From the NCBI GenBank assembly GCA_022709385.1, contig JAKLIX010000022.1:1-64000 (forward strand): DNA of 64,000 nucleotides. The letters are read 5' to 3'. This DNA comes from Bacteroidota bacterium. GTDB taxonomy: Bacteria; Bacteroidota; Bacteroidia; Bacteroidales; CAIXZF01. Both the position numbers and the translations under genes were made by a program. Below the pieces are notes generated by a model. It was not told where the DNA came from, searched no databases, and saw only the letters and a list, made by a program, of their open reading frames with translations. Positions 1 through 12,204 of the stretch are shown piece after piece (position 1 is the first letter of the stretch; the number at the start of each line of letters is the position of its first letter).

Positions 1-131
1 ATATTCCCAATACTGCGCACTGTAGGTATTTCCAACCCCCGCAATTTTCCATCTTTTCCTGTCCATTCATTCCGAACCCGTACTTATCCGAAGAATAGGA
101 ACGTCCAGGCATGAGCATCCCGCCAACTGAC
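1..131 (-). pseudogene. Rhs repeat-associated core remnant, cut by window edge
   Basis: Read on the minus strand, this stretch translates to pieces typical of Bacteroidetes Rhs core domains. They are GMLMPGRSYSSDKY, then GFGMNGQE, then (one base out of frame) a GNTYSAQYWEY-like segment. The frame change lies around the AAAAGATGG run near 85-95, so the copy is frameshifted. It stops where the IS21 element begins and runs off the left edge. Rhs cores sit just before the variable toxin tip of polymorphic toxins. Another Rhs tail at 3584-4747 suggests the whole left end is the remains of one or more Rhs loci. Identification rests on motif recognition only. Confidence 0.6.
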
Positions 132-205: not shown

Positions 206-946
206 TTAGGCAAATTTTTCTTGTTTTTTCTTTCTTAAAGAGTCTCCTTTTAAATCAAATCGATGAGCATTTCCTGCCAATCTGTCCATTATTGCATCAG
301 CAATTGTATTTTCACCGATATACTCATGCCATCTGTTAACGGGTAACTGGGAGGAGATGAGTGTAGACCGCTTCCCGTAGCGATCCTCAAGGATTTGCAA
401 GAGAGTCAGCCGGGTAATTTTATCCAGGGGATGCAAGCCAAAGTCGTCAAAGATCAGTAACTGAGTTTTTTCAATCTGGTTTAGCAACTTCAGATAAGTT
501 CCGTCTAGTTTTGTCTGGGTAACTTTCTCGAGGAATCTGCTCATCCCGAGATAGAGTGTCTTATATCCGAAAGAGCAGGCCTGGCGGCCAATAGCGCAAG
601 CCAGGTAACTTTTCCCGCAGCCAGTGGCACCAGTGATTAAAACGTTTTCAGAACGTTCAATGAATCCGCAGTCGGCGATCTTGATTAACTGATCCTGAGT
701 AAGATTGCGGGTTGCATTACAGTACACCTGTTCAAAAACGGCGTTGTAACGCAGTTTACTGAGTTTAAGGTACGCCTGGGTTTTTAGGTGTGCCCGGTGC
801 TGAAGTTCTGCTTCAGATAATCTGGCCAGGAACTGGTGGATCGATGGTTGATCCTGGACTGGCAGGGATAAGACTGCCTGGTAGGCATCAGCCATACCGA
901 TAAGTTTTAACTGTTTTAACTGTTCTAAGGTGGTTTGTGTGTTCAT
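206..946 (-). CDS. istB: IS21 family helper ATPase IstB
   Basis: This is the AAA+ ATPase helper of IS21 transposition, related to DnaC and DnaA. It works with IstA to select and deliver target DNA. At 246 aa it has normal IstB length. Walker A (GATGCGKS) is at residues 106-113 and a Walker B-type LLIFDDFG lies near residue 164. The gene starts 15 bp after the istA stop, so the two are co-transcribed. No disruption is visible. Confidence 0.95.
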   Translation of the reverse strand: MNTQTTLEQLKQLKLIGMADAYQAVLSLPVQDQPSIHQFLARLSEAELQHRAHLKTQAYLKLSKLRYNAVFEQVYCNATRNLTQDQLIKIADCGFIERSENVLITGATGCGKSYLACAIGRQACSFGYKTLYLGMSRFLEKVTQTKLDGTYLKLLNQIEKTQLLIFDDFGLHPLDKITRLTLLQILEDRYGKRSTLISSQLPVNRWHEYIGENTIADAIMDRLAGNAHRFDLKGDSLRKKKQEKFA

Positions 947-961
947 AATTGCTTTATTTGG

Positions 962-2524
962 TTAATTGTATGCTTGTGGTCCTCTGAGGTTTTCATGATC
1001 ATCGGGTATGGAAGAAAACAGGTTCTGATCCGGGTCAACGGTATCCAGGTTGTTTGTGAGGATGTTATCAATCAGACGGTAGTTTACTCTCGAAGCTTGC
1101 AAGGCACGACGGCACGCATTTTCAAAACGATCCTTCCCGTAATGCTTTGACAGTCTTATCAAGCCAAGACAGGCATTAAAGGTTTGTTCGGTAAAGGTTC
1201 TGGATTCAAGTATTCTATTAAAGATCTGACGGGAGCACTCCCCAAGTTCTGTGGCTTGTTTTATAAAGTAATCCGCATCCCAGCCCTTGACCTCCCCATA
1301 CTTTCGGTGTTTCACCGGCATATGCTCCTGCAGGGTTGTGTATCCGTGTTTGCGGTAATTGCGTTTGTGGACAGCTATCCTCTGTAAACCAAGATAAACC
1401 TCTACCTCGTCCGTATCGTAAATGAGTTTTACCTGTTTGCCAATGTATTGATAAGGAACACTATAGTGATGCCAGTCTTCACCCAGGGTAACATGATAGT
1501 TCCTCTGCACTTTGGCCGAGGCTGTGTGTTTAATTACGAACGGTTCTTGCGGTAATCGATTGAGAAGTGGCTGCTCCTCGGTTTTGAAGAGGTCGTATCT
1601 ACTGAAGGTGCGCTTCTGTAAAGGGCTTCGTACATGAATGTCAAGTTGTATCAGGATGTTGTCATTCAACTCAGCCAAACTGTAAAACAGCTTGTCCCTC
1701 AATGGGGCGTATATGCGCATATAAGCCAGGTGTACCGTATTCTCAACCGTTGGCTTATCCTTTGGTTTACCAACCCGGGTTGCTATCAGGGTAGTTCCAT
1801 TGTGTAGAGCCCACTGCTCACAGAGTTCTGTAAAAACAGGCTCATAGCGATTACTCTTCTTAACAACCTGTTTCATGTTATCGCTCAGAACCATCCGGGG
1901 TACACCCCCCAGGTAGGCCAAACAACGGCCCAATGCAAGAAAAAGGTGTTCCTGTCTGGCTGAAGCCAGGGCCTCAACGTATGCGAAGCCGCTGAACGGA
2001 AGTACGCACACCAAAACCGGGCATGTAATCACCTCTCCTGTTGAAGGGTCAAGGTAAGTCAACGACTTACCTGCAAAATCAATCTGCAGCACCTCACCGG
2101 GTTGATGGGTAAAGTGCATTGTTGCTGAAGATTTTATTTTGTGATCAGCCAGATGTTCACAGAACTGTGAATAACTGTAAGCCCCTGGTATTTCCTTTCT
2201 GTACTCCTCCCATAACAAAAGCTTGGTAACGCCTGTTTTAGTGAGCTCAGATGAAAAATAATCCATCCGGCTTTGCAGATACTGATATCGCCCGTCAGGT
2301 GCCGGATCGCGGTTTTTCGAATATAGCAATGAGCCAAGTTCTGCGTCCCCAAGCTTTGCAAGCCTGGAAAGATCCATCCCTGTTTGCATAATTTTCAAGG
2401 TGTAATCATCAATAGTATGACGGCTTGAATGCAATAGGCTGGCGATAGCACGCTTCGAGTAGCCTTGCGAAAGAAGTTGTAAAATGCGTCGAATCTGTAA
2501 CATTGTAATGGGTTGTTTTGCCAT
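962..2524 (-). CDS. istA: IS21 family transposase IstA
   Basis: This is a 520-aa DDE transposase of the IS21 family. The N-terminus carries a helix-turn-helix that binds the terminal repeats (about residues 8-45, with SQGYSKRAIASLL). The catalytic core shows Asp149 (LQIDFAG), Asp215 (VLSDNMK) and Glu261 (KPTVENT) with rve-type spacing. A Mu-transposase-like C-terminal domain follows. The frame is full length and upstream of istB, as in other members. It starts about 50 bp inside the innermost right-end repeat at 2575-2597. Confidence 0.95.
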   Translation of the reverse strand: MAKQPITMLQIRRILQLLSQGYSKRAIASLLHSSRHTIDDYTLKIMQTGMDLSRLAKLGDAELGSLLYSKNRDPAPDGRYQYLQSRMDYFSSELTKTGVTKLLLWEEYRKEIPGAYSYSQFCEHLADHKIKSSATMHFTHQPGEVLQIDFAGKSLTYLDPSTGEVITCPVLVCVLPFSGFAYVEALASARQEHLFLALGRCLAYLGGVPRMVLSDNMKQVVKKSNRYEPVFTELCEQWALHNGTTLIATRVGKPKDKPTVENTVHLAYMRIYAPLRDKLFYSLAELNDNILIQLDIHVRSPLQKRTFSRYDLFKTEEQPLLNRLPQEPFVIKHTASAKVQRNYHVTLGEDWHHYSVPYQYIGKQVKLIYDTDEVEVYLGLQRIAVHKRNYRKHGYTTLQEHMPVKHRKYGEVKGWDADYFIKQATELGECSRQIFNRILESRTFTEQTFNACLGLIRLSKHYGKDRFENACRRALQASRVNYRLIDNILTNNLDTVDPDQNLFSSIPDDHENLRGPQAYN

Positions 2525-2574
2525 AGTACCTCGTTTTGGGCAAGGTACTTTATGTTACAAATCCGCTTTGTTCA

Positions 2575-2726
2575 AGTGGCGCTGATTCTGCCGGAATGTC
2601 AGGTCAAAATCAGGTACTCCTTGCTCCAAAATCAAGCACCAACCCCCCATGTTTGGGGTGGCGCTGATTCGACCGGAATGGTGGCGCTGATTTGACCGGA
2701 ATGGGTGGCGCTGATTGGGCCGGAAT
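2575..2726. repeat. IS21 right-end repeats (four copies)
   Basis: Four copies of a GGTGGCGCTGATT...CCGGAAT motif lie at 2575-2597, 2657-2679, 2680-2702 and 2704-2726. The middle pair abut directly. Copies differ mainly in the three or four bases between GATT and CCGGAAT (CTG, CGA, TGA, GGG). The same motif occurs inverted at 133-177. These are probable IstA binding sites. Confidence 0.8.
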
Positions 2727-2748
2727 ATTCACCAACAGCCCCCTCCCG

Positions 2749-2770
2749 ACCTCCCCCACCCGGGGGAGGT
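2749..2770. repeat. GC-rich palindrome next to IS21 end
   Basis: ACCTCCCC and GGGGAGGT form an 8-bp inverted repeat around a short C/G loop, followed by GTTTCTGTT. It could act as a weak terminator between the orphan Rhs fragment and the IS, but the T tract is poor. The function is not established. Confidence 0.35.
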
Positions 2771-2936
2771 GTTTCTGTTCCCTTTTGAGTTCGCCTTGTT
2801 ACTTTGTAAAAGCAACTCAAGTCTATCCCTGCTGTGAGTGAAAGCGTAGTCAAAAAGTATTTATTTATTTCTTGTTCTGTTCTCATTGAAACATATGGGT
2901 AAGCCTCCCCTGGGTTGGGAGCCTGTCCCGATGAAC

Positions 2937-3063
2937 AAAGTGAACCGAGAAGGTTTGGAGCGGCCAGTGATGGATCAACTCCTCGGAAAACAGCAGATTT
3001 CAGGTCATAGTACCGTGCCCCGTAATAGTACAAGCTACTTTGACTTTGGTTCTGATTCACCAT
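2937..3063 (-). pseudogene. Orphan Rhs core fragment (YYYGARYYD...GVDP)
   Basis: A short open frame carries the hallmark SLYYYGARYYDLKSAVFRGVDP-like end of an Rhs core but has no upstream YD repeats. After GVDPS it loses similarity and runs through unrelated sequence to 2632, inside the IS21 end. About 30 bases around the YYYGARYYD codons are nearly identical to the homologous stretch of the Rhs gene at about 4308-4338. That fits a displaced core/tip module, the orphan type seen downstream of Rhs loci. Its 5' end overlaps the stop region of the candidate immunity gene in another frame. Confidence 0.6.
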
Positions 3064-3550
3064 TCATTATTTCATTTTTTAACGACTCATTAGATAGTTT
3101 TAAGTCAATATTCAGTCCTTCTTTGGCTAAAAATAAAATGAATTCTCTTTCTTTTTTTGATCTGATATCTTCAGAAATGAAAACATATTTTTTGAAACCG
3201 GAACAAAATAAAAATCTCTTCTTCTCATTACTTATTATTGTAATTTGAGGAATAGAGCCAGATCCAGTGTAAGAATAAAATACTATTTTTTGTATGTTGA
3301 TATACGGGATAACTATTTTATTCTTTCCGGTAACCCAATGTATTTTAATTGGATAAGTAATAAATAATTTCCTTTCCTTAAACTCTAGAATACAATAGAA
3401 ATATGACAAGAAAATATATGAAATTATTGCTCCAATAATTATTTGCCAATAAATATTGTGAAGTGTTAATTTAATTAAGAAGAAAATCAATGCAAAAATA
3501 AAAGGAACTGTCCTTAATGGGAATACAATACTTTTGACAATGTAGTTCAT
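3035..3550 (-). CDS. Small membrane protein, candidate immunity to the Rhs toxin tail
   Basis: This is a 171-aa protein with two hydrophobic segments near the N-terminus (about residues 10-30 and 35-56). A cytosolic part with alternating beta-rich sequence follows (ITYPIKIHWVTGKNKIVIPY, then FLFCSGFKKYVFISED), resembling PH-like domains fused to two TM helices. It is AT-rich compared with the flanking genome and begins 33 bp after the stop of the Rhs gene at 3584-4747. In polymorphic toxin loci the gene directly downstream of the toxin usually encodes immunity, so that role is inferred from position. No family was firmly recognised. Confidence 0.5.
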   Translation of the reverse strand: MNYIVKSIVFPLRTVPFIFALIFFLIKLTLHNIYWQIIIGAIISYIFLSYFYCILEFKERKLFITYPIKIHWVTGKNKIVIPYINIQKIVFYSYTGSGSIPQITIISNEKKRFLFCSGFKKYVFISEDIRSKKEREFILFLAKEGLNIDLKLSNESLKNEIMNGESEPKSK

Positions 3551-3583
3551 GGCCTTCTTGGTTAATTCAGCATTAAAACATAT

Positions 3584-4747
3584 TTACTTCTCTGTTGCAA
3601 TTTGCTTAATAACTTCTGTGCCAATATCTAATGCTTTTTCGGCTTTACTTGGATCCTTCACTAATCCAGATACATTTGAGCCAAAGTTGAAAAACGAAAA
3701 TCCTGTTTTAAGATCACCAATTGTTTTCTTTGCAGCTGGGGAATTGCAAACTTGTTGTAAGGAACTTTCTCCATTTGAATTAGTCCCAATATCATCAATA
3801 CTATTAACTAATTGCAAGCCTAACCCAACAGTAGCGACTACTCCAGTTTCAGCCATTAATCCAACTCCTGCAGTCATTACACCTATAACACCGCTTGCAA
3901 CTGCCGCATCTTGCCTATCAACCCTGCCCATATTGGCTCCATCATGCCCGCCTTCTAGCTTATTATCAAACTGAGCAAATGAATGACAAAGGTTTCCCAA
4001 AACACTTCTTTGATCCTCTTTGGTTGGTAAAAAAACTTTTGATTCGCTTACACTTACACCATTAGTCGAATAATTCCTATCCACAGATGCGTATTTCATA
4101 CCATTAGTACCTTTCCACTTATGAAATTCACCTCCATTTTTTCGCTTGAAAGCTCTTGCTTCCCGAACATTTGCATTTTCCCAAGGCCATTTTCCGTCAG
4201 GGTCTTGAAGCCTTACAGGATTATTCAGACAATAAGTGAAAGGAGAAATCGAAGGAGTCCTATCACTTAACGGGTCAACCCCCAGAAACACAGACGTTTT
4301 CGGATCATAGTACCGTGCCCCGTAATAGTACAACCCGCTCTCCTCATCAAGCTCTTTGCAGTTAAATTTATAGGGACTGATCCAAGTCTGGGCTTTTTCA
4401 TCGATCAGGACTTCTCCGAAGGGCAGGTAATCGACATGCTGATATGGTGTTCCATCAAATGCGGTAATGAAGGAAGTGCTTCCCAGGTGATCAGGGTGGA
4501 AGAAATACATACCGGTTTCAGGATCATCCCGGTGATTCTGTAGTGAGAGGAAGCTATACAGGCCCGACGACATCACAAAGGTACCGGGCTGCCCGCAACT
4601 GTCAAGGTCGTCCAGTACCATCTGCTCATTCATGGTCATTTTACTGTCATTGTCCTGTTGCGAATTTACATCAAATCCGCAGACCCAGTCGAAAAAATCT
4701 GTTTCATTCACCATGTGACACATGGAGCCCAGGTCGGGTTTTATCAT
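3584..4747 (-). CDS. Rhs repeat-associated core protein with variable C-terminal tip, 5'-truncated
   Basis: The 387-aa product has the Rhs/YD core at about residues 75-185, with FHPDHLGSTSF, YLPFGEVLID, GLYYYGARYYDP, FLGVDPLSD and an NPVRLQDPDGKWPW end. About 200 residues after DPDGK form the variable tip. The tip is AT-rich, with a long Ala/Gly/Val hydrophobic stretch (about residues 280-310) that could enter membranes. Full Rhs proteins are usually well over 1000 aa with many upstream YD repeats. Here the repeats and the secretion part are missing, so this is a truncated gene or a silent tip cassette. The downstream gene at 3035-3550 is its likely immunity partner. No known toxin motif was recognised in the tip. 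Confidence 0.7.
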   Translation of the reverse strand: MIKPDLGSMCHMVNETDFFDWVCGFDVNSQQDNDSKMTMNEQMVLDDLDSCGQPGTFVMSSGLYSFLSLQNHRDDPETGMYFFHPDHLGSTSFITAFDGTPYQHVDYLPFGEVLIDEKAQTWISPYKFNCKELDEESGLYYYGARYYDPKTSVFLGVDPLSDRTPSISPFTYCLNNPVRLQDPDGKWPWENANVREARAFKRKNGGEFHKWKGTNGMKYASVDRNYSTNGVSVSESKVFLPTKEDQRSVLGNLCHSFAQFDNKLEGGHDGANMGRVDRQDAAVASGVIGVMTAGVGLMAETGVVATVGLGLQLVNSIDDIGTNSNGESSLQQVCNSPAAKKTIGDLKTGFSFFNFGSNVSGLVKDPSKAEKALDIGTEVIKQIATEK

Positions 4748-4830
4748 ATTTTAATGAATAGCTTTTCTGGTTTTAAAAAATTCTTCAAGCTAACATACTG
4801 GTTATGTAGCTTTTGCAAGATCAATCCTGC

Positions 4831-4861
4831 ATGTGGCACATCAGGGGTTCATGTGCCACAT
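4831..4861. repeat. Perfect 11-bp inverted repeat
   Basis: ATGTGGCACAT (4831-4841) and ATGTGCCACAT (4851-4861) are exact reverse complements separated by 9 bases. There is no T tract on either side, so it is not a normal intrinsic terminator. It could be a protein-binding site or part of a mobile-element end. Confidence 0.6.
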
Positions 4862-4921
4862 GGCAACTTCTACTCCACCCCAGTACGCTCTTTTTACTTT
4901 TCGCTCAGGCCGCGGGGCCTC

Positions 4922-5004
4922 GGATTGGCGCCGAAACCGGGAAGCTCCCCCGGTTCCCGCAAGCGTGAACCTCAGTCCGCTCCCCCAGGTTTCTCTGCCA
5001 ATCC
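4922..5004. repeat. GC-rich interrupted inverted repeat
   Basis: GGATTGGC (4922-4929) followed by a GAAACC block is mirrored by GGTTTC and GCCAATCC (4997-5004), enclosing about 45 GC-rich bases. The whole could fold into one long stem-loop. Nature and origin are unknown. Confidence 0.45.
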
Positions 5005-5023
5005 TGGAATCGTTTTTTCTGCA

Positions 5024-5122
5024 ATACCTAATGAACACATAAATGCGATGTGTGTTCCCAGATTCATCGGTATAAAGAATCTAAGCGAAAATTACTTCGC
5101 ATTTTCACTAAGATTCTGTTTA
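5024..5122 (+). repeat. B-type MITE copy 1
   Basis: A ~99-bp repeat closely matches 6430-6527. The shared core runs from AATGCGATGTGTGTT through ATTCATCGGTATAAAGAATC to a terminal hairpin containing GCGAAAATTACTTCGC. Left end ATACC and the imperfect right end resemble those of the A-type repeats and of the IS630 end at 41302-41327. It overlaps the last 31 bases of the gene at 5092-5403 and supplies that gene's stop codon. Confidence 0.7.
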
Positions 5123-5403
5123 AACCATTTTTCTGCATTTGGTCTGCGGTGCGGGCAGCCAGGCCAGCAACAGGGTTGTCGTTTACCCTCGTTTAATTCT
5201 TCAAGCATACGGTCTATATGTTCCGCCCTTGTCACGGTTTTTTTGACTGTTGTAACCCAGCAAATCCATTCGTTACGCTGAATGGGTGTAAGTTGATTCC
5301 ATTTCATAAGAACGGCTGGATTGGAAGCCAATGCGCTTTTCATGTCCTCCGGCACTTCATGAAGTATTCCATTGGAAATTTCGCTGGTCTTATTTGGATC
5401 CAT
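5092..5403 (-). CDS. YdeI/OmpD-associated family protein
   Basis: This 103-aa protein matches the short C-terminal form of the YdeI/OmpD-associated (bacteriocin-protection) family. It has PEDMKSALASNP near residue 20, LTPIQRNEWICWV at about 38-50, a KKTVTRAEHIDRMLEEL helix, and a CCWPGCPHR end at about 78-86. Family members are small cytosolic proteins whose biochemistry is poorly known. After CCWPGCPHRR, where relatives usually stop, the frame continues about 17 residues. The last of these and the TAA come from the B-type MITE at 5024-5122, so the C-terminus appears modified by the insertion. Confidence 0.75.
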   Translation of the reverse strand: MDPNKTSEISNGILHEVPEDMKSALASNPAVLMKWNQLTPIQRNEWICWVTTVKKTVTRAEHIDRMLEELNEGKRQPCCWPGCPHRRPNAEKWFKQNLSENAK

Positions 5404-5433
5404 GTTGTTGCTTTTGCATATTTGTCATGTTAT

Positions 5434-5538
5434 TATACCGACACGGAATGAGTTTGCGAAAAAATTGCGATTCAAGGGTGTACGGCATTACTCATACTAA
5501 ACAGCTTTGCATTCGCAAACCTGTCAAGTATGAGTATA
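5434..5538 (+). repeat. A-type IS630-like MITE copy 1
   Basis: A 105-bp repeat starts TATACCGACACGG and ends GAGTATA. Each end shows a 26-bp imperfect terminal inverted repeat: left TATACCGA...GAGTTTGCGA and, reversed, right TATACTCA...ACAGGTTTGCGA. The right end folds into a hairpin (ACTCATACT ... AGTATGAGT, with TTTGC/GCAAA at the tip). Other copies are at 40905-41005, 46055-46158 and 63353-63458. It lies in the gap between 5403 and 5627. Confidence 0.8.
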
Positions 5539-5626
5539 TAATCCGAAAGCATACAATCGTGAGCATCTGGTTAAGCGGATGTGAAGGCCCGCAGGGTTTT
5601 TTGTACAAAATCGTCTGATGATATTT

Positions 5627-6409
5627 TCATCGATTTGTCAGGGAGTTCATGATGTTTTCAAATCGGGTGTTGCTGATGGGATGGTGACTGATGAGTTTTC
5701 CATTTAAAATCATCGCAAAGCTACCGAATGGACTGGGAGTATTTTGGGCCGCCTGGTGATTCTGTATCTCAATTAACTGAGTTTTAATCCTATATTTTTT
5801 TTGAGCCGTTTCCAGAATGGCTATCACATTCTTCTCCGTATACGGGCACTGGGGCGATCTGAATATCGTCAGACCCTTTTGATATTCAGTAAAGCCGGTT
5901 AAGATTTCCTGGTTGAAGGATGGATATTGATCGTTGTCCTTAAATTTTTTTACCATCAACTCGAAATCTGGTTTGGCTTTCTCGACGGGTACAAACCCAT
6001 TCTTTATAAATATTTCACTGCCCGCCATGAAAGAGCCTTTTCTCGTAACCACAGTAACCCCCTCCAATTTCAGGGCTTTCGCATCATCGATGCACTCCGA
6101 TATCAAGGATGAAGCCAAACCTTTCCCTTTGAAATCCTTTCTGAAACCCACAAAGATGCAGTGAATGAACATGAATCCCCTTGCGCTGACAGGTCTGTGC
6201 GCAAATTCACCCGGGATGTATTCTATCATTCCCTGATATCCTCCTGTGGGAGAAACTACTACCTTTATTCTTAAGCCTTTGGGATAATACCCTGTGAACC
6301 ATTCCAACTTTGCCCTCAGCTCCTTATGCTTAGCAATGTCCTTATACCCACAGACGCCAAATTCTGCAAAGTTCTCCGGAGTAAGGTCCACAATGTTGAA
6401 GTCGTTCAT
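5627..6409 (-). CDS. GNAT N-acetyltransferase with YoaP C-terminal domain
   Basis: This 260-aa protein has a GNAT fold in its first two-thirds. FRKDFKGKGLASSLISE (about residues 90-106) is the acetyl-CoA pyrophosphate-binding signature. A C-terminal YoaP-type thioredoxin-like segment follows, with a CPYT dipeptide context near residue 190 (FRSPQCPYTEKN) and PSPFGSFAMILNGKLISH. Such two-domain YoaP-like acetyltransferases occur in many bacteria; the natural acceptor is unknown. It stands alone between two MITE copies (5434-5538 and 6430-6527) and is probably monocistronic. Confidence 0.8.
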   Translation of the reverse strand: MNDFNIVDLTPENFAEFGVCGYKDIAKHKELRAKLEWFTGYYPKGLRIKVVVSPTGGYQGMIEYIPGEFAHRPVSARGFMFIHCIFVGFRKDFKGKGLASSLISECIDDAKALKLEGVTVVTRKGSFMAGSEIFIKNGFVPVEKAKPDFELMVKKFKDNDQYPSFNQEILTGFTEYQKGLTIFRSPQCPYTEKNVIAILETAQKKYRIKTQLIEIQNHQAAQNTPSPFGSFAMILNGKLISHHPISNTRFENIMNSLTNR

Positions 6410-6429
6410 CGGTTCATTTCATTTGGTTC

Positions 6430-6527
6430 ATACCGAGGAAAACAGGAATGCGATGTGTGTTTCCAGATTCATCGGTATAAAGAATCCTACCGAAAATTGC
6501 TTCGCATTTTCACGAAGATTCAGTATA
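6430..6527 (+). repeat. B-type MITE copy 2
   Basis: A ~98-bp repeat starts ATACCGAGGAAAACAGG and ends CAGTATA. The interior is nearly identical to 5024-5122. The left end is even closer to the IS630 remnant end at 41302-41327 (ATACCGAGG...AACAGG..TGCGA). The right-hand hairpin pairs GAATC...GATTC around GCGAAAATTGCTTCGC-like sequence. Confidence 0.7.
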
Positions 6528-6676
6528 TTAATGCATGGTAACCGGTCAGTAAAAACAAGATCACGCTTAGACTCCCCTTGGCATCAGTCCGGGAACAAAG
6601 ATATGCACAAACTCATTTCGATGGTGTCAGTGTATTCAATAAGCATCAGTCTATCCGGGCATATTGAAAATATGCT

Positions 6677-6684
6677 TACATTTG
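6677..6684 (+). promoter_or_regulatory. Candidate -7 box for wza/wzc operon
   Basis: TACATTTG fits the Bacteroidetes sigma-ABfr -7 consensus TAnnTTTG. No clear -33 TTTG lies at the expected spacing, so support is moderate. It is 44 bp before the TTG start of the export lipoprotein. Confidence 0.4.
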
Positions 6685-6727
6685 CAGCATCTTTCCTTAA
6701 AGAGTTAAATAATTTATTATCAGACAC

Positions 6728-7516
6728 TTGAGTAATTATAAAGCGAATCTGCCATTGGCGGCCTTTGCGGGACTACTGCTGGTACTGCTGACTTCCTGTA
6801 TTCCGCAAAAGCGGATCATGTACCTGCAGGACCGCGACGGGGGCGACACTGCGAGGGTTTTTGACCAGGCGGCCAGCCGGGATTACCGTCTTCAGCCCGG
6901 GGACAATCTTTACATCCGGGTGATCGGCCTGGACGAGAGCGCCAACGGCATGTTCAACCTGGCCCCGGGCAGCAGCGCCGTGAATTACGGCAATAGTGAA
7001 GCGGGGCTGTACCTGAGCAGTTACACGGTAGATCCGGCCGGCAACATCCGGATGCCGGTGCTGGGCAGCATCAATGTAAAGGATAAGAGTACGGAAGAGG
7101 CTGAAAGCGCCGTTCAGCAGGCGTTAGACATGTACCTGAAGAGCAGTACCGTGGTGATCAAACTGGTGAGTTTTTATTATACCGTGCTGGGGGAAGTACG
7201 CCGTCCGGGGCGTTATCCTGTGTACCAGCCGCGGCTCAGCCTCTTTGAGGCGATCGGGGAGGCCGGCGACCTGACTACTTTCGGGAACAGGAACAAGGTG
7301 AGGATCATCCGAGGAAACAGCGGCAGAACGGAAGTGCTGAACGTTGATCTGACCAGAAAGGACATCCTCAGCTCGCCTGACTTCTACCTCAAACCCGACG
7401 ATATCATTTACGTGGAACCATTGCGGGCAAAGGGGCTGGTGTTTGAAGCCTTCCCTTACACCCTGATCTTCTCCACCATCACCACAACCCTGCTCATCCT
7501 CAACTTCCTCAAATAA
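6728..7516 (+). CDS. Wza-like polysaccharide export lipoprotein (SLBB)
   Basis: This 262-aa outer-membrane polysaccharide export protein (Wza/OPX family) has a lipoprotein signal ending LLVLLTSC, so Cys24 is lipidated. A Poly_export domain follows (about 50-140, with YRLQPGDNLYIRVIG). An SLBB domain spans about 148-225 (VLGEVRRPGRYPVY, then FGNRNKVRIIRG). A hydrophobic C-terminal helix (about 238-262) would cross the outer membrane, as in Wza. The start is TTG at 6728, because a stop codon lies 15 bp upstream in frame and no ATG gives a signal peptide. The tyrosine kinase partner begins 6 bp downstream. Confidence 0.9.
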   Translation: MSNYKANLPLAAFAGLLLVLLTSCIPQKRIMYLQDRDGGDTARVFDQAASRDYRLQPGDNLYIRVIGLDESANGMFNLAPGSSAVNYGNSEAGLYLSSYTVDPAGNIRMPVLGSINVKDKSTEEAESAVQQALDMYLKSSTVVIKLVSFYYTVLGEVRRPGRYPVYQPRLSLFEAIGEAGDLTTFGNRNKVRIIRGNSGRTEVLNVDLTRKDILSSPDFYLKPDDIIYVEPLRAKGLVFEAFPYTLIFSTITTTLLILNFLK

Positions 7517-7522
7517 AAAGCA

Positions 7523-9979
7523 GTGGATCAGATACCCAAATATCATCAGGAACCCAATGTGGACTTCAAGCTGATGCTCCATAAAATGATCGCCCACTGG
7601 CCATGGTTCCTGCTTTCGCTCCTCATTTTCATATCCGCCGCTTTTCTGTTCAACCGCTATGCCAGGCCGGAATACAGGACAGGCTGCACCATCCTGGTGA
7701 AGGATGACAAGGCTCAGGCCGGCAGTATTCTCAGCGACATCGACCTGTTTGCACCCAAGAAAAACATACAGAACGAGATCGGAATCCTCCGCTCCTATTC
7801 CCTTGCGCGGAAAGCGGTGCAGGATCTCGACCAATACGTATCTTACTTTGTGGGAGGAAGAATCCGTTACAGGGAGCTGTACAAGTTGTCGCCGTTTACC
7901 GTGGTTTACGACAGCTCCAGTCTGCAGGCTGTCGATATGCCGGTGTATATCAGAATCGTCGACAACAGCAAATATGAACTGGAAATCAGGGAAGCGGACG
8001 AGGTAAGCGCGGGCATACCGGAAAACGACAGCGGAAATCCGAAACTGATCAGCATCCCGGCCAGGGTCAGAAAAACACTTGCCTTCGGTGAGACATTCAG
8101 GACGGATTATTTTTCGTTCCGAATCCTGCTGAATGAAAATTATGATGCCGCTGAGCACAAAGGCGGCAGTTTCCGTTTCCATTTCAACACCCTGGACCGG
8201 CTCAGCCGCGAAGTGATGCAGATCTCGGCCGAACCGATCAACAGGGAGGCCTCTATCCTGCAAGTCACCTATGTCAACCAGAACGCCGGCAAAGCGGTGG
8301 ATTACCTGAACAAACTTGCCGAAACCTATATCCGGCGCGACCTGGAAGAGAAAAACCAGAAAGCGGTGAATACCATCAACTTCATCGACGGTCAACTGCT
8401 GGAAATCACTGATTCACTGGGGCTGGCGGAGCGCGAACTCCAGGATTTCAGGGCCGAAAACAAAATCATGGATATCAGCACGGAAGCCAATGCGGTATTC
8501 CAGCGGATCAACGAACTGGAGAAGGAGAAGGCGGTTGAAAAACTAAAATCCAAGTATTACCACTATCTGATGGATTACATCAGGAAAAGCGCCGACCTGA
8601 AAAACGAGATCGTGGCTCCATCGGCCATGGGTATCGACGACCCGGTGCTCAGCAGCCTGATCGGCACTTTAAACCAGCTCATCCTGGAAAAGACCCAGCT
8701 CGGAATCAGCGCCACATCGAAAAATCCTTCACTCGACGCCCTGGAAAGGAAAATCGCTCAAACGGCCCGTGCACTGGAAGATAATATCGAAAATATCGTC
8801 AACCTCTCCAATATCAGCATTCGTGACCTGGACCGCAGGATTGGAGAGATCGAGGCCCAGGTGAACAAACTTCCGGGCACCGAAAGAAAACTGGTCAACA
8901 TCCAGCGGAACTTCACCATCAATGACAGAATCTATACCTTTCTCCTCGAGAAAAGGGCGGAAGCAGCCATCGCCAAAGCTTCCAATATCTCCGACAACAG
9001 AATCATCGACTATGCGATGAGCACCGAGCTGGTGTACCCGCGGAAAAGCCTGAACTATATCCTGGCCCTGCTGCTTGCACTGATCATCCCGGTACTGGTA
9101 ATCTACCTTCGCGATTACATGAACGACAAGATTGTGGAGAAAAAAGACGTGGAAAACCACACCAGCCTTCCCATCCTCGGGCATGTAATCCACAACAACA
9201 GGGACACCCAGATCGTGGTGGCCAAATATCCCAGGTCGTCCATCGCCGAATCCTTCCGTTCGGTCAGAACCAACCTGCAATATCTTGGCAAGGGCAGCGA
9301 AAAACTTAAGATACTGGTAACCAGTACTATGGTATCAGAAGGAAAAACTTTTGTTTCCATCAACCTTTCATCCGTTTACGCCCTGAACGGAAAGAAAACC
9401 GTTCTGCTGGGCTTTGACTTGCGCAAACCTAAGATATACAAGGACTTTGGCCTTTCCAACGCGAAGGGGATCAGTAATTTCCTGATCGGGCAGGCCGGGC
9501 TGGAAGACATCATCCAGGCTTCGCCGGTGGAGAACCTCGACATGATCATGGCCGGGCCCATCCCCCCCAATCCTTCGGAGCTGATCTCGTCTGAAAAGTG
9601 TACAGAATTTTTCAGCCTCTTATCGGAGCGTTATGACTTCATCATCATCGACACGCCGCCGGTAGGGCTTGTAACGGACGCTTTCCTGCTGATGGAACAT
9701 TCCGACATCAATGTCTTTGTGACGCGGCAGCATCACACCAACAAAAAAGTGTTCGGATCCATTATCCGCGACATGGAGCTGAGGAAGCTGCCCAGGCTGA
9801 CCATCCTGATCAACGATGTGAAACTCGGAAGCAAGGGTTACGGTTTCAGTCACGGCTCGGGCTACGGTTACGGCTACGGATATGGGTACGGCTATGGGTA
9901 CGGTTATGGGTATTATGCTGAGGACAAGGAAGCGGATGCCGCAGGGAGCGGCTGGAGGCGCTGGTTTTCGCGCGGATAA
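7523..9979 (+). CDS. Wzc-like exopolysaccharide co-polymerase and tyrosine autokinase
   Basis: This 818-aa inner-membrane protein controls exopolysaccharide polymerisation and export. It has a Wzz domain with TM1 near residues 30-48, a long periplasmic coiled coil (about 260-470), TM2 near 510-530, and a cytosolic BY-kinase domain (about 575-790). The Walker A motif is SEGKT at 605-609, where relatives usually have GEGKT/S. Walker A' is LLGFDLRKP and Walker B is FIIIDTPP. The C-terminal tail holds nine Gly-Tyr dipeptides, the cluster that is autophosphorylated. The start is GTG, 6 bp after the wza-like stop. cysD follows 21 bp later, so the operon may include sulfate activation. Confidence 0.92.
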   Translation: MDQIPKYHQEPNVDFKLMLHKMIAHWPWFLLSLLIFISAAFLFNRYARPEYRTGCTILVKDDKAQAGSILSDIDLFAPKKNIQNEIGILRSYSLARKAVQDLDQYVSYFVGGRIRYRELYKLSPFTVVYDSSSLQAVDMPVYIRIVDNSKYELEIREADEVSAGIPENDSGNPKLISIPARVRKTLAFGETFRTDYFSFRILLNENYDAAEHKGGSFRFHFNTLDRLSREVMQISAEPINREASILQVTYVNQNAGKAVDYLNKLAETYIRRDLEEKNQKAVNTINFIDGQLLEITDSLGLAERELQDFRAENKIMDISTEANAVFQRINELEKEKAVEKLKSKYYHYLMDYIRKSADLKNEIVAPSAMGIDDPVLSSLIGTLNQLILEKTQLGISATSKNPSLDALERKIAQTARALEDNIENIVNLSNISIRDLDRRIGEIEAQVNKLPGTERKLVNIQRNFTINDRIYTFLLEKRAEAAIAKASNISDNRIIDYAMSTELVYPRKSLNYILALLLALIIPVLVIYLRDYMNDKIVEKKDVENHTSLPILGHVIHNNRDTQIVVAKYPRSSIAESFRSVRTNLQYLGKGSEKLKILVTSTMVSEGKTFVSINLSSVYALNGKKTVLLGFDLRKPKIYKDFGLSNAKGISNFLIGQAGLEDIIQASPVENLDMIMAGPIPPNPSELISSEKCTEFFSLLSERYDFIIIDTPPVGLVTDAFLLMEHSDINVFVTRQHHTNKKVFGSIIRDMELRKLPRLTILINDVKLGSKGYGFSHGSGYGYGYGYGYGYGYGYGYYAEDKEADAAGSGWRRWFSRG
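9860..9916 (+). repeat. GGN-TAY hexamer repeat coding for Gly-Tyr tail
   Basis: Nine consecutive Gly-Tyr codon pairs (GGN TAY) encode the phosphotyrosine tail of the kinase at 7523-9979. Third-base variation is frequent, so copy number is probably maintained by selection on the protein. Slippage remains possible. Confidence 0.7.
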
Positions 9980-10000
9980 GCGGCAAGGAAGGCGGGAATT

Positions 10001-10906
<906 letters not shown>

Positions 10907-10917
10907 GCAGGAGATGT

Positions 10918-12204
10918 ATGACAGGACAGGAATTCTCAAGTGCGGCCTATCTCGACATGGAGTTATTGCGTTTTACCACGGCAGGCAGCGTGGACGACGG
11001 CAAGAGCACCCTGATCGGACGCCTGCTGTACGACAGCAAGTCCATCTTCGAGGACCAGCTCGAAGCCGTGAAGAAAGCGAGCATCCTGAAAGGAAGCGAA
11101 TATATCAACCTGGCCCTGCTTACCGACGGGCTCAGGGCGGAAAGAGAACAGGGGATTACCATCGATGTGGCCTACCGCTACTTCGCCACTCCGAAACGGA
11201 AGTTCATCATTGCGGACACGCCAGGCCATACACAATACACCAGGAACATGGTGACCGGCGCTTCCACCGCCAATGCCACCATCGTGCTGATCGACGTACG
11301 CAACGGCGTGACAGAACAAACCTGCCGCCATACTTATATCGCCCACCTGCTTGGCATTCCCCACCTGATTGTCTGCATCAACAAGATGGATCTTGCCGGG
11401 TACAGCCGGGAGCCCTATGAAAGCATCCGGTCTGCCATGACGGAATTTACGGCCCAACTTGGCTTCCGTGACCTGCAATACGTTCCGATCAGCGCCCTGG
11501 CAGGCGACAATGTGGTGGAAGCCTCTGAAAACATGCCATGGTATGAGGGAGGGACACTGATGCAAATCCTGGAAAACGTTGATATCGCTTCAGACCATAA
11601 CTTCACCGACGCCCGTTTCCCCGTTCAGTGCGTAATCCGGCCCATGAGCGATGAATACCACGACTACCGGGCATATGCCGGCCGGGTGGCGGGAGGGGTG
11701 TTTGCCAAAGGCGATGAAGTGATCGTATTGCCCTCCGGCCTGCGGAGCCGGGTCAAATCCGTCGACTTCTTCACGGCATCACTCGAAAAGGCATTCCCTC
11801 CCATGTCGGTCACCCTCAGTCTGGAAGACGACATCGACATCAGCCGGGGCGATATGATCGTGAAGCCGGACCAGATGCCGCTTGCCGGTCAGGACCACGA
11901 GGTCATGCTGTGCTGGTTCAACCCGAAGCCCTTACGAACAGGGGCCAGGTATATCCTCAGGCATGCCACATCGGAGGTCAGGGCGCTGATAAAACAAATC
12001 CATTACAAGGTCAATGTCAATACCCTGGAACATGTCGGAGGCTGCACGGAACTGAATATGAACGACATTGCCTGCGTCGGTCTGAAGACGACCAGGGCCC
12101 TTTATTATGACCCATACCGCCGCAACAGGATCAGCGGCAGCCTGATTCTAATCGATGAAGCCACCCATGAAACCGTAGCGGCCGGAATGATCCTTTGTAC
12201 TTAA
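10918..12204 (+). CDS. cysN: Sulfate adenylyltransferase subunit 1 (GTPase)
   Basis: This is the GTP-hydrolysing subunit that drives APS synthesis with CysD. G1 GSVDDGKS is at residues 23-30, G3 DTPGH near 99-103, and G4 NKMD near 160. EF-Tu-like beta-barrel domains follow. At 428 aa it is a stand-alone CysN: the APS kinase domain fused in NodQ-type proteins is absent. It is translationally close to cysD and followed 19 bp later by kbl. Confidence 0.95.
   Translation: MTGQEFSSAAYLDMELLRFTTAGSVDDGKSTLIGRLLYDSKSIFEDQLEAVKKASILKGSEYINLALLTDGLRAEREQGITIDVAYRYFATPKRKFIIADTPGHTQYTRNMVTGASTANATIVLIDVRNGVTEQTCRHTYIAHLLGIPHLIVCINKMDLAGYSREPYESIRSAMTEFTAQLGFRDLQYVPISALAGDNVVEASENMPWYEGGTLMQILENVDIASDHNFTDARFPVQCVIRPMSDEYHDYRAYAGRVAGGVFAKGDEVIVLPSGLRSRVKSVDFFTASLEKAFPPMSVTLSLEDDIDISRGDMIVKPDQMPLAGQDHEVMLCWFNPKPLRTGARYILRHATSEVRALIKQIHYKVNVNTLEHVGGCTELNMNDIACVGLKTTRALYYDPYRRNRISGSLILIDEATHETVAAGMILCT

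Follow-up and report, generated by a model that had tools for sequence, protein, structure and literature searches.

The 64,000-nucleotide stretch of DNA analysed here (the window) begins at the first position of contig C15 of a 4.08 Mb genome in 32 contigs from a member of the Bacteroidales. Near this contig end, the minus strand carries the end of an Rhs core, then a tip that belongs to no family, a gene for a protein of 171 amino acids, a core stub and an IS21 element. This arrangement raises the question of whether the locus is a toxin-immunity pair displaced from a larger Rhs gene and, if so, where such a toxin might act. The original prediction, made from the sequence, was that recombination had exchanged tips at this site and that a pore-forming or membrane-targeting toxin was possible.

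The unit begins with an open reading frame for 387 amino acids (4747..3584, minus strand, as are all features of the unit). Codons 1-186 of this frame (4190..4747) constitute the core, which ends at the sequence DPDG, and residues 107-185 match the Rhs-associated core (TIGR03696, E 5e-21). The remaining 202 amino acids and the stop codon (3584..4192) form the C-terminal tip, which is the putative toxin. By eye, the 387-amino acid frame shows no signal peptide and there are in-frame stops just upstream, which is likewise the condition reported for orphan rhs genes of Enterobacteria in PMC3967940. After 33 bases there follows the putative immunity gene (3035..3550), whose TAG stop codon is directly succeeded by CTTGTACTATTACGG, the beginning of the short core stub (LYYYGARYYD...VDP, 2972..3033). 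The second YYYGARYYD motif is encoded at 3027..3004. The stub lacks the SPYxYC..NNP..DPxG part of the core and has no recognisable tip behind it. Farther along are the IS21 transposase gene istA (962..2524; NF033546, E 4e-58) and the helper ATPase gene istB (206..946; NF038214, E 9e-67), followed by a frameshifted fragment of a different Rhs-type core (1..120) that is cut by the contig end and whose motif was recognised by eye in the translations.

All parts of the originally predicted order (core, tip, small protein with two membrane segments, second core) are present, but the second core is a short stub only. The two cores had been described as nearly identical in DNA, and they do share 29 identical nucleotides; over the full 62 nucleotides, however, their identity is 82% and beyond this the stub has decayed. 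The description of the tip as AT-rich is borne out, as the GC content falls from 0.47 in the core to 0.39 in the tip and then to 0.26 in the 171-amino acid gene, versus 0.49 for the window. A feature missed earlier is that the first core (4747-4190) is itself displaced.

There are 16 matches to the Rhs core in the whole genome. The closest one outside the window belongs to a 3245-codon reading frame on contig C27, wherein SpvB, TcdB_midN, FG-GAP and RHS-repeat domains precede the core, and this core shares 86% DNA identity with the window core over 489 nucleotides. Two more cores are present on the 3' side of the tip and small gene of this parent. The first of them has another tip and additional small membrane genes, and the second is truncated where the contig ends. 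Additional core pieces are present on C19, C11, C9 and C30. The first 12 kb of the window contain no main rhs gene upstream of the unit, and the parent lies on C27. Contigs C9, C11, C15, C19, C27 and C30 all break off within a core sequence or close to one, and because this is true of both C15 and C27, any linkage between these two is not visible. Since a full-length parent and displaced cores occur together on C27 and core pieces are found on other contigs, the unit in the window is one member of a dispersed collection of displaced Rhs tips. The combination of 16 core matches with a full-length Rhs gene that is followed by displaced cores, another tip and other small genes supports the tip exchange that had been proposed.

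The giant frame (positions 2421-12158 of locus L019 on C27, minus strand) lies a short way downstream of a gene whose product has a T9SS sorting tail. A membrane protein of 154 amino acids on C27 and its displaced tip were considered as kin of the window pair, but they were rejected with hhalign probabilities of 1.7 and 0.1.

If the tip were merely the conserved tail of all Rhs proteins, it should recur with the core. A search of the same genome yields one match to the tip versus 10 exact core sites. Five relatives of the tip were found in four other Bacteroidota genomes (G028, G123 and G345 with one each and G132 with two), and the G028 representative shares 39% identity with the tip in the window. 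Searching 295 genomes of relatives at E <= 0.01 gave five genomes including the organism's own, one of which (G152) is spurious; that match falls inside a frame named by eye as UMP kinase and was dropped. A profile search recovered the organism's own genome and G345 among 395 genomes of the class (2/395), and a search of 395 genomes of the phylum only its own (1/395). No tip relatives could be confirmed among viral contigs and plasmids. From a genome-collection scan, 3 of 13 pattern matches were confirmed, and all of them are known loci (G028, G123 and one of the two in G132).

With leave-one-out profiles, each of the six tips was recovered first (E 7e-58 to 2e-12), while the best of 1335 decoy reading frames, from which any holding a family member were excluded in each run, reached E 0.18. 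As noted at the outset, the tip has no known toxin motif: there is no match in Pfam (five of the six tips in alignment A1, the sixth within its carrier), NCBIfam or PHROGs (five of the six) or among PDB sequences that covers it, and the tip profile finds no PDB chain at E <= 1. A match to CBM_10 at the start of the tip (E 0.008, below the cut-off) was taken as chance. By homology, the tip apparently represents a putative toxin family without a name that is rare and patchy in its distribution.

The carriers of this tip are of several types. The tip is attached to a displaced Rhs core in the window and in G028, and to a partial core in G123. In G345 the carrier is a long open Rhs frame (859 codons) that reaches the contig end. 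The two G132 tips have carriers with non-Rhs N-termini and without an Rhs core. These G132 carriers match no family and no contractile sheath was found for them, and we take them to resemble eCIS-linked proteins on account of their acidic linker repeats. The locus in G028 (L057, 7681-15135) is an array in which four or more Rhs cores bear different tips and have small genes between them, and in which a first tip of JAB-like toxin type, the window-type tip, a weakly metalloprotease-like neighbour and another tip are represented.

The block common to all six tips comprises the C-terminal ~130 residues, whereas the N-terminal third differs between Rhs and non-Rhs carriers. Invariant columns among the six trimmed tips are G15, G34, N60, D63, G66, K92 and K132. 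The shared block includes a hydrophobic Gly/Ala/Val segment, behind which lie a conserved NSxDD..G stretch and, likewise, an invariant Lys. In the window, the predicted Ala/Gly/Val segment corresponds to tip residues 96-114 (3851..3907), with a mean hydropathy of 1.83, and a hydrophobic peak is present in all six tips, at the corresponding place in the alignment. The height of this peak over 19 residues is moderate (1.8-2.3), and shuffled sequences reach it in 0.4-10% of cases (2.2% for the window tip and 10% for the G123 tip). Glycine-zipper patterns do not line up among the six tips, and the quality of the structure model of the tip (pLDDT 41) is too low to search for its fold.

Behind each of the six tips lies a gene for about 149-171 amino acids from a single family, at a distance of about -26 to +65 nucleotides that depends on the start codon chosen. 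The five other partners share 19-26% identity with the 171-amino acid protein of the window, and leave-one-out profiles recovered six of six partners (E 1e-20 to 4.5e-12). Thus, adjacency and homology at every locus point to a cognate immunity gene next to the tip, with a predicted role in neutralisation. The partner had been described as a protein with two transmembrane segments, which agrees with its hydrophobic peaks at residues 8-26 and 37-55 and its modelled helices at residues 5-29 and 33-58 (3377..3538). Two such peaks near the N-terminus are present in all eight partners examined, including two orphan homologues.

The model of the 171-amino acid protein (mean pLDDT 64.5) consists of two long helices, six strands and then a helix. 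Comparison with the PDB gave rows at residues 60-145 that are mostly PH-fold entries with Z scores of 3.2-3.9, and a Foldseek search with the model returned nothing at E <= 0.001. A PH domain is a seven-stranded barrel with a C-terminal helix, and the partner model, at its middling confidence, shows six strands before the helix. Two members of the partner family resemble bPH_7 (PF20794) across both the helices and the beta part, at 19.3 and 15.6 bits, which is below the gathering score of 25 bits, and the window protein itself has no match to this family. We call the predicted domain (residues 61-143, 3122..3370) PH-like rather than a proven PH domain because the PDB Z scores are only 3.2-3.9, Foldseek gives no match and the bPH_7 scores are below the cut-off. 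A Foldseek match to TDP2 and PDB-comparison rows to unrelated helical proteins were rejected as weak. In a targeted full-text literature search, an immunity architecture with two helices and a PH-like domain was not found described for Rhs or other polymorphic toxins.

Partner homologues without a detected tip are found in G218 (two copies), G001, G085 and, weakly, G103. They were taken from the profile search only, and four single-sequence matches outside the organism's own genome (E 0.002-0.007) were left unused. The family thus does occur without a detected tip, a finding that would weaken the toxin-immunity assignment if it were widespread, but it does so in only 4/295 genomes. G001 belongs to the same family of organisms as the bacterium studied here. 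The G001 gene and one of the two G218 genes have no Rhs frame in the surrounding 17-20 kb. When the window partner was held out of the profile, a G218 orphan scored above it (48.2 versus 42.8 bits). Because there are tip-less homologues and the G218 orphan outscores the window partner, the partner family is wider than the toxin family of the tip. Orphan immunity genes have precedents, such as ExiCD in PMC12744356.

We consider it likely, with a probability of roughly two in three, that this locus is an orphan rhs-CT/rhsI cassette encoding a putative toxin that acts in or on a membrane, with the membrane partner as its putative antidote. The existence of a tip-partner module is well supported by its anatomy, by homology among six loci, by synteny at all six, by the differing carriers and by the arrays of displaced cores. 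The pattern is that of a polymorphic toxin with its immunity protein because the carrier varies while the tip and the small gene are constant, the spread is rare and patchy, and displaced copies exist. Co-conservation at all six tip loci, two of which have a non-Rhs carrier, lends support to the toxin and membrane immunity pair first suggested, for which the function is predicted. A pore-forming or membrane-targeting action of the tip is plausible. Membrane action is favoured because the hydrophobic Gly/Ala segment is conserved in six of six tips and the partner is a membrane protein, whereas the moderate hydropathy and the low confidence of the tip model (pLDDT 41) count against it.

We infer toxicity, membrane action, neutralisation, reloading and the route of delivery as follows. 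The main Rhs protein elsewhere in the genome would carry one C-terminal toxin at a time, and older toxin-immunity pairs would be displaced and stored as short units of core, tip and immunity gene. The C-terminal 130 residues of the tip, with their hydrophobic Gly/Ala helical segment, probably enter the inner membrane of a competing cell or make it permeable. The PH-like membrane protein with two helices probably binds the toxin and blocks it at the membrane. Recombination within the core might reload the stored tip onto the main Rhs gene. With regard to delivery, the contractile-sheath families PF04984 and PF05943 were each found in none of the five tip-bearing genomes, although control genomes were found by the same search, which could miss divergent sheaths of Bacteroidota. 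There is thus no indication in these five genomes of cargo for a T6SS or eCIS. T9SS sorting tails occur in five of five, and the parent Rhs protein may be exported to the surface or by a route linked to the T9SS.

The kind of system proposed is already known, and several precedents can be compared with the window. Orphan rhs modules reload by recombination according to PMC3967940, which gives 95% identity over 522 bp between the orphan and main rhs genes of Salmonella LT2. The window unit, like the orphan rhs-CT/rhsI modules known from Enterobacteria such as Salmonella (PMC3967940, PMC3150448), has a C-terminal core fragment ending in DPxG, an unrelated variable tip and an adjacent small gene, and it retains DNA homology to a main rhs gene that would permit reloading. 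Unlike the LT2 example, that homology is 86% over 489 nucleotides and the parent is on another contig. The host also differs from those of the enterobacterial modules, being a member of the Bacteroidales in which a contractile sheath was not found.

Tse5 of Pseudomonas aeruginosa (Tse5/Tsi5) is described in PMC10684867 as an Rhs tip that forms pores in the inner membrane. Both are C-terminal Rhs tips placed at this membrane, by demonstration for Tse5 and by prediction here, but the window tip has no sequence match among PDB chains and no T6SS sheath was detected. Tse5, CDI ionophores and EsxX share a hydrophobic, membrane-insertable domain, and the window tip has a candidate for such a domain of moderate hydropathy only. 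As in the CDI ionophores and their CdiI proteins (PMC11630599), a variable part precedes a shared hydrophobic domain and the immunity proteins are hydrophobic and highly divergent. In contrast to CdiI, the partner here carries a PH-like domain after its two helices, and homology was not detected. Immunity to channel-forming effectors is provided in almost all cases by a polytopic membrane protein, as stated in PMC12744356. The partner also resembles Imm17 and other immunity proteins with two transmembrane segments (PMC3482391), which likewise have two membrane helices and occur in Bacteroidetes. Imm17 is described in that source with WxW and an R between its helices, whereas the window protein lacks WxW, has the added PH-like domain and gives no Pfam match. 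The pair appears to add an unnamed toxin-immunity family to the polymorphic toxins, and its presence on both Rhs and non-Rhs carriers makes it a good candidate for direct assays of toxicity and protection.

The strongest competing explanation is that the unit is a dead remnant of a decaying rhs island whose genes are neither expressed nor reloadable, a fate that would be compatible with a former toxin-antidote pair. This is possible, albeit doubtful. The IS21 element in the island, the dispersed repeats, the frameshifted core at 1-120, the degraded stub, the absence of a visible export signal and the contig ends in or near core repeats are all in keeping with decay. However, both reading frames are intact and align over their length with relatives at 19-39% identity, and the core homology needed for reloading has been kept.

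Another view retains the cassette but makes the toxin an enzyme or inhibitor that acts in the periplasm or on membrane lipids, wherein the hydrophobic segment would serve as an anchor or aid entry and the membrane partner would encounter the toxin at that place. We regard this as unlikely, although a hydrophobic stretch by itself is no proof of a pore. The tip of the parent on C27 has a GCIR-type motif like that of L,D-transpeptidases, recognised by eye and without a family call, and some immunity proteins of cell-surface L,D-peptidase toxins are secreted or transmembrane proteins according to Zhang et al. (PMC3482391). However, the invariant columns of the tip reveal no evident catalytic set, with only N60 and D63 as possible members.

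Rather less probable still is that the hydrophobic part serves for entry or translocation and that toxicity resides in the last 60-70 residues, with a target in the cytoplasm. CDI ionophores do have modular entry and toxin domains (PMC11630599), and the way in which the N-terminal third of the tip varies with the carrier, Rhs or non-Rhs, could be read likewise. Yet the block shared by all tips unites the hydrophobic part with the C-terminus and the variable part precedes it, and partners of cytoplasmic toxins are mostly soluble as surveyed in PMC3482391. A non-toxic role for the two genes as a conserved membrane pair is scarcely credible, as the tip lies at the C-termini of Rhs and other carriers whose N-termini differ and is rare and scattered among genomes (5/295, 2/395 and 1/395 in the searches above, its own included and one spurious), even though partner homologues without tips exist.

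At the junctions with the DNA before them, five short stubs (those on C9, C11, C19 and C27 and the one in the window) begin at the same core codon, LY|YYGARYYD, and the DNA upstream of them is unrelated except that C9 resembles C11. Three of these stubs lie behind real reading frames of 171, 164 and 210 amino acids, whose stop codons are located 7, 7 and 3 nucleotides before the YYYGAR codon, or 0-2 nucleotides before the start of core homology. No long reading frame ends at the junction of the C9 and C11 stubs. A fourth orphan core, near the end of contig C27, is found 11 nucleotides after the stop codon of a gene for 115 amino acids and begins at a different core position. Within this genome, therefore, displaced cores behind real small genes start 0-11 nucleotides after a stop codon. 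Such a common starting codon right behind the stop of the preceding gene differs from what is described for the enterobacterial modules (PMC3967940, PMC3150448). The same abutment was sought in the arrays of G134, G021 and G028 but was not seen; these arrays retain a longer part of the core and lack a real reading frame that ends so close, such that the exact abutment was observed in this genome only.

One explanation for these junctions is that units of core site, tip and immunity gene are exact mobile cassettes in this lineage, moved by a dedicated site-specific or short-homology mechanism. We consider this a long shot. Trimming that stops at the final useful base of the small gene, together with recombination among stubs, would explain the junctions. 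If the cassette reading were true, the units would be integron-like cassettes that use a coding core as the site, such that a new warhead would be inserted in frame and the old warhead with its antidote would be pushed one place down. The exact junctions between stop codons and stubs offer a concrete, testable handle on the exchange of tip cassettes.

Several repeats and genes near the unit were also observed. At 5434-5538 there is a dispersed repeat of 105 bp with 22-nucleotide inverted arms, copies of which (84-96% identical) are present in at least six other stretches of the genome. On C30 one copy splits an Rhs core, on C19 another is directly adjacent to a core, and on C9 a third lies 20 nucleotides beyond the core match. 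A second dispersed family of about 100 bp is represented at 5024-5122 and 6425-6532 (88%), with more members on C2, C27 and C30. The palindrome ATGTGNCACAT (4713-4861) is observed five times in the window versus an expectation of 0.08; three such palindromes are grouped at the beginning of the displaced core or immediately upstream of it, and similar ones occupy the same place on C30. Beside the Rhs unit (5092-5403, minus strand) is a gene for a small protein with an OmdA/YdeI 'bacteriocin-protection' domain (PF13376, E 2e-16). Farther away (7523-9979, plus strand), a large frame resembles an exopolysaccharide-type tyrosine kinase and has a Gly-Tyr repeat (GYGYGYGYG...) near its C-terminus, as judged by eye.
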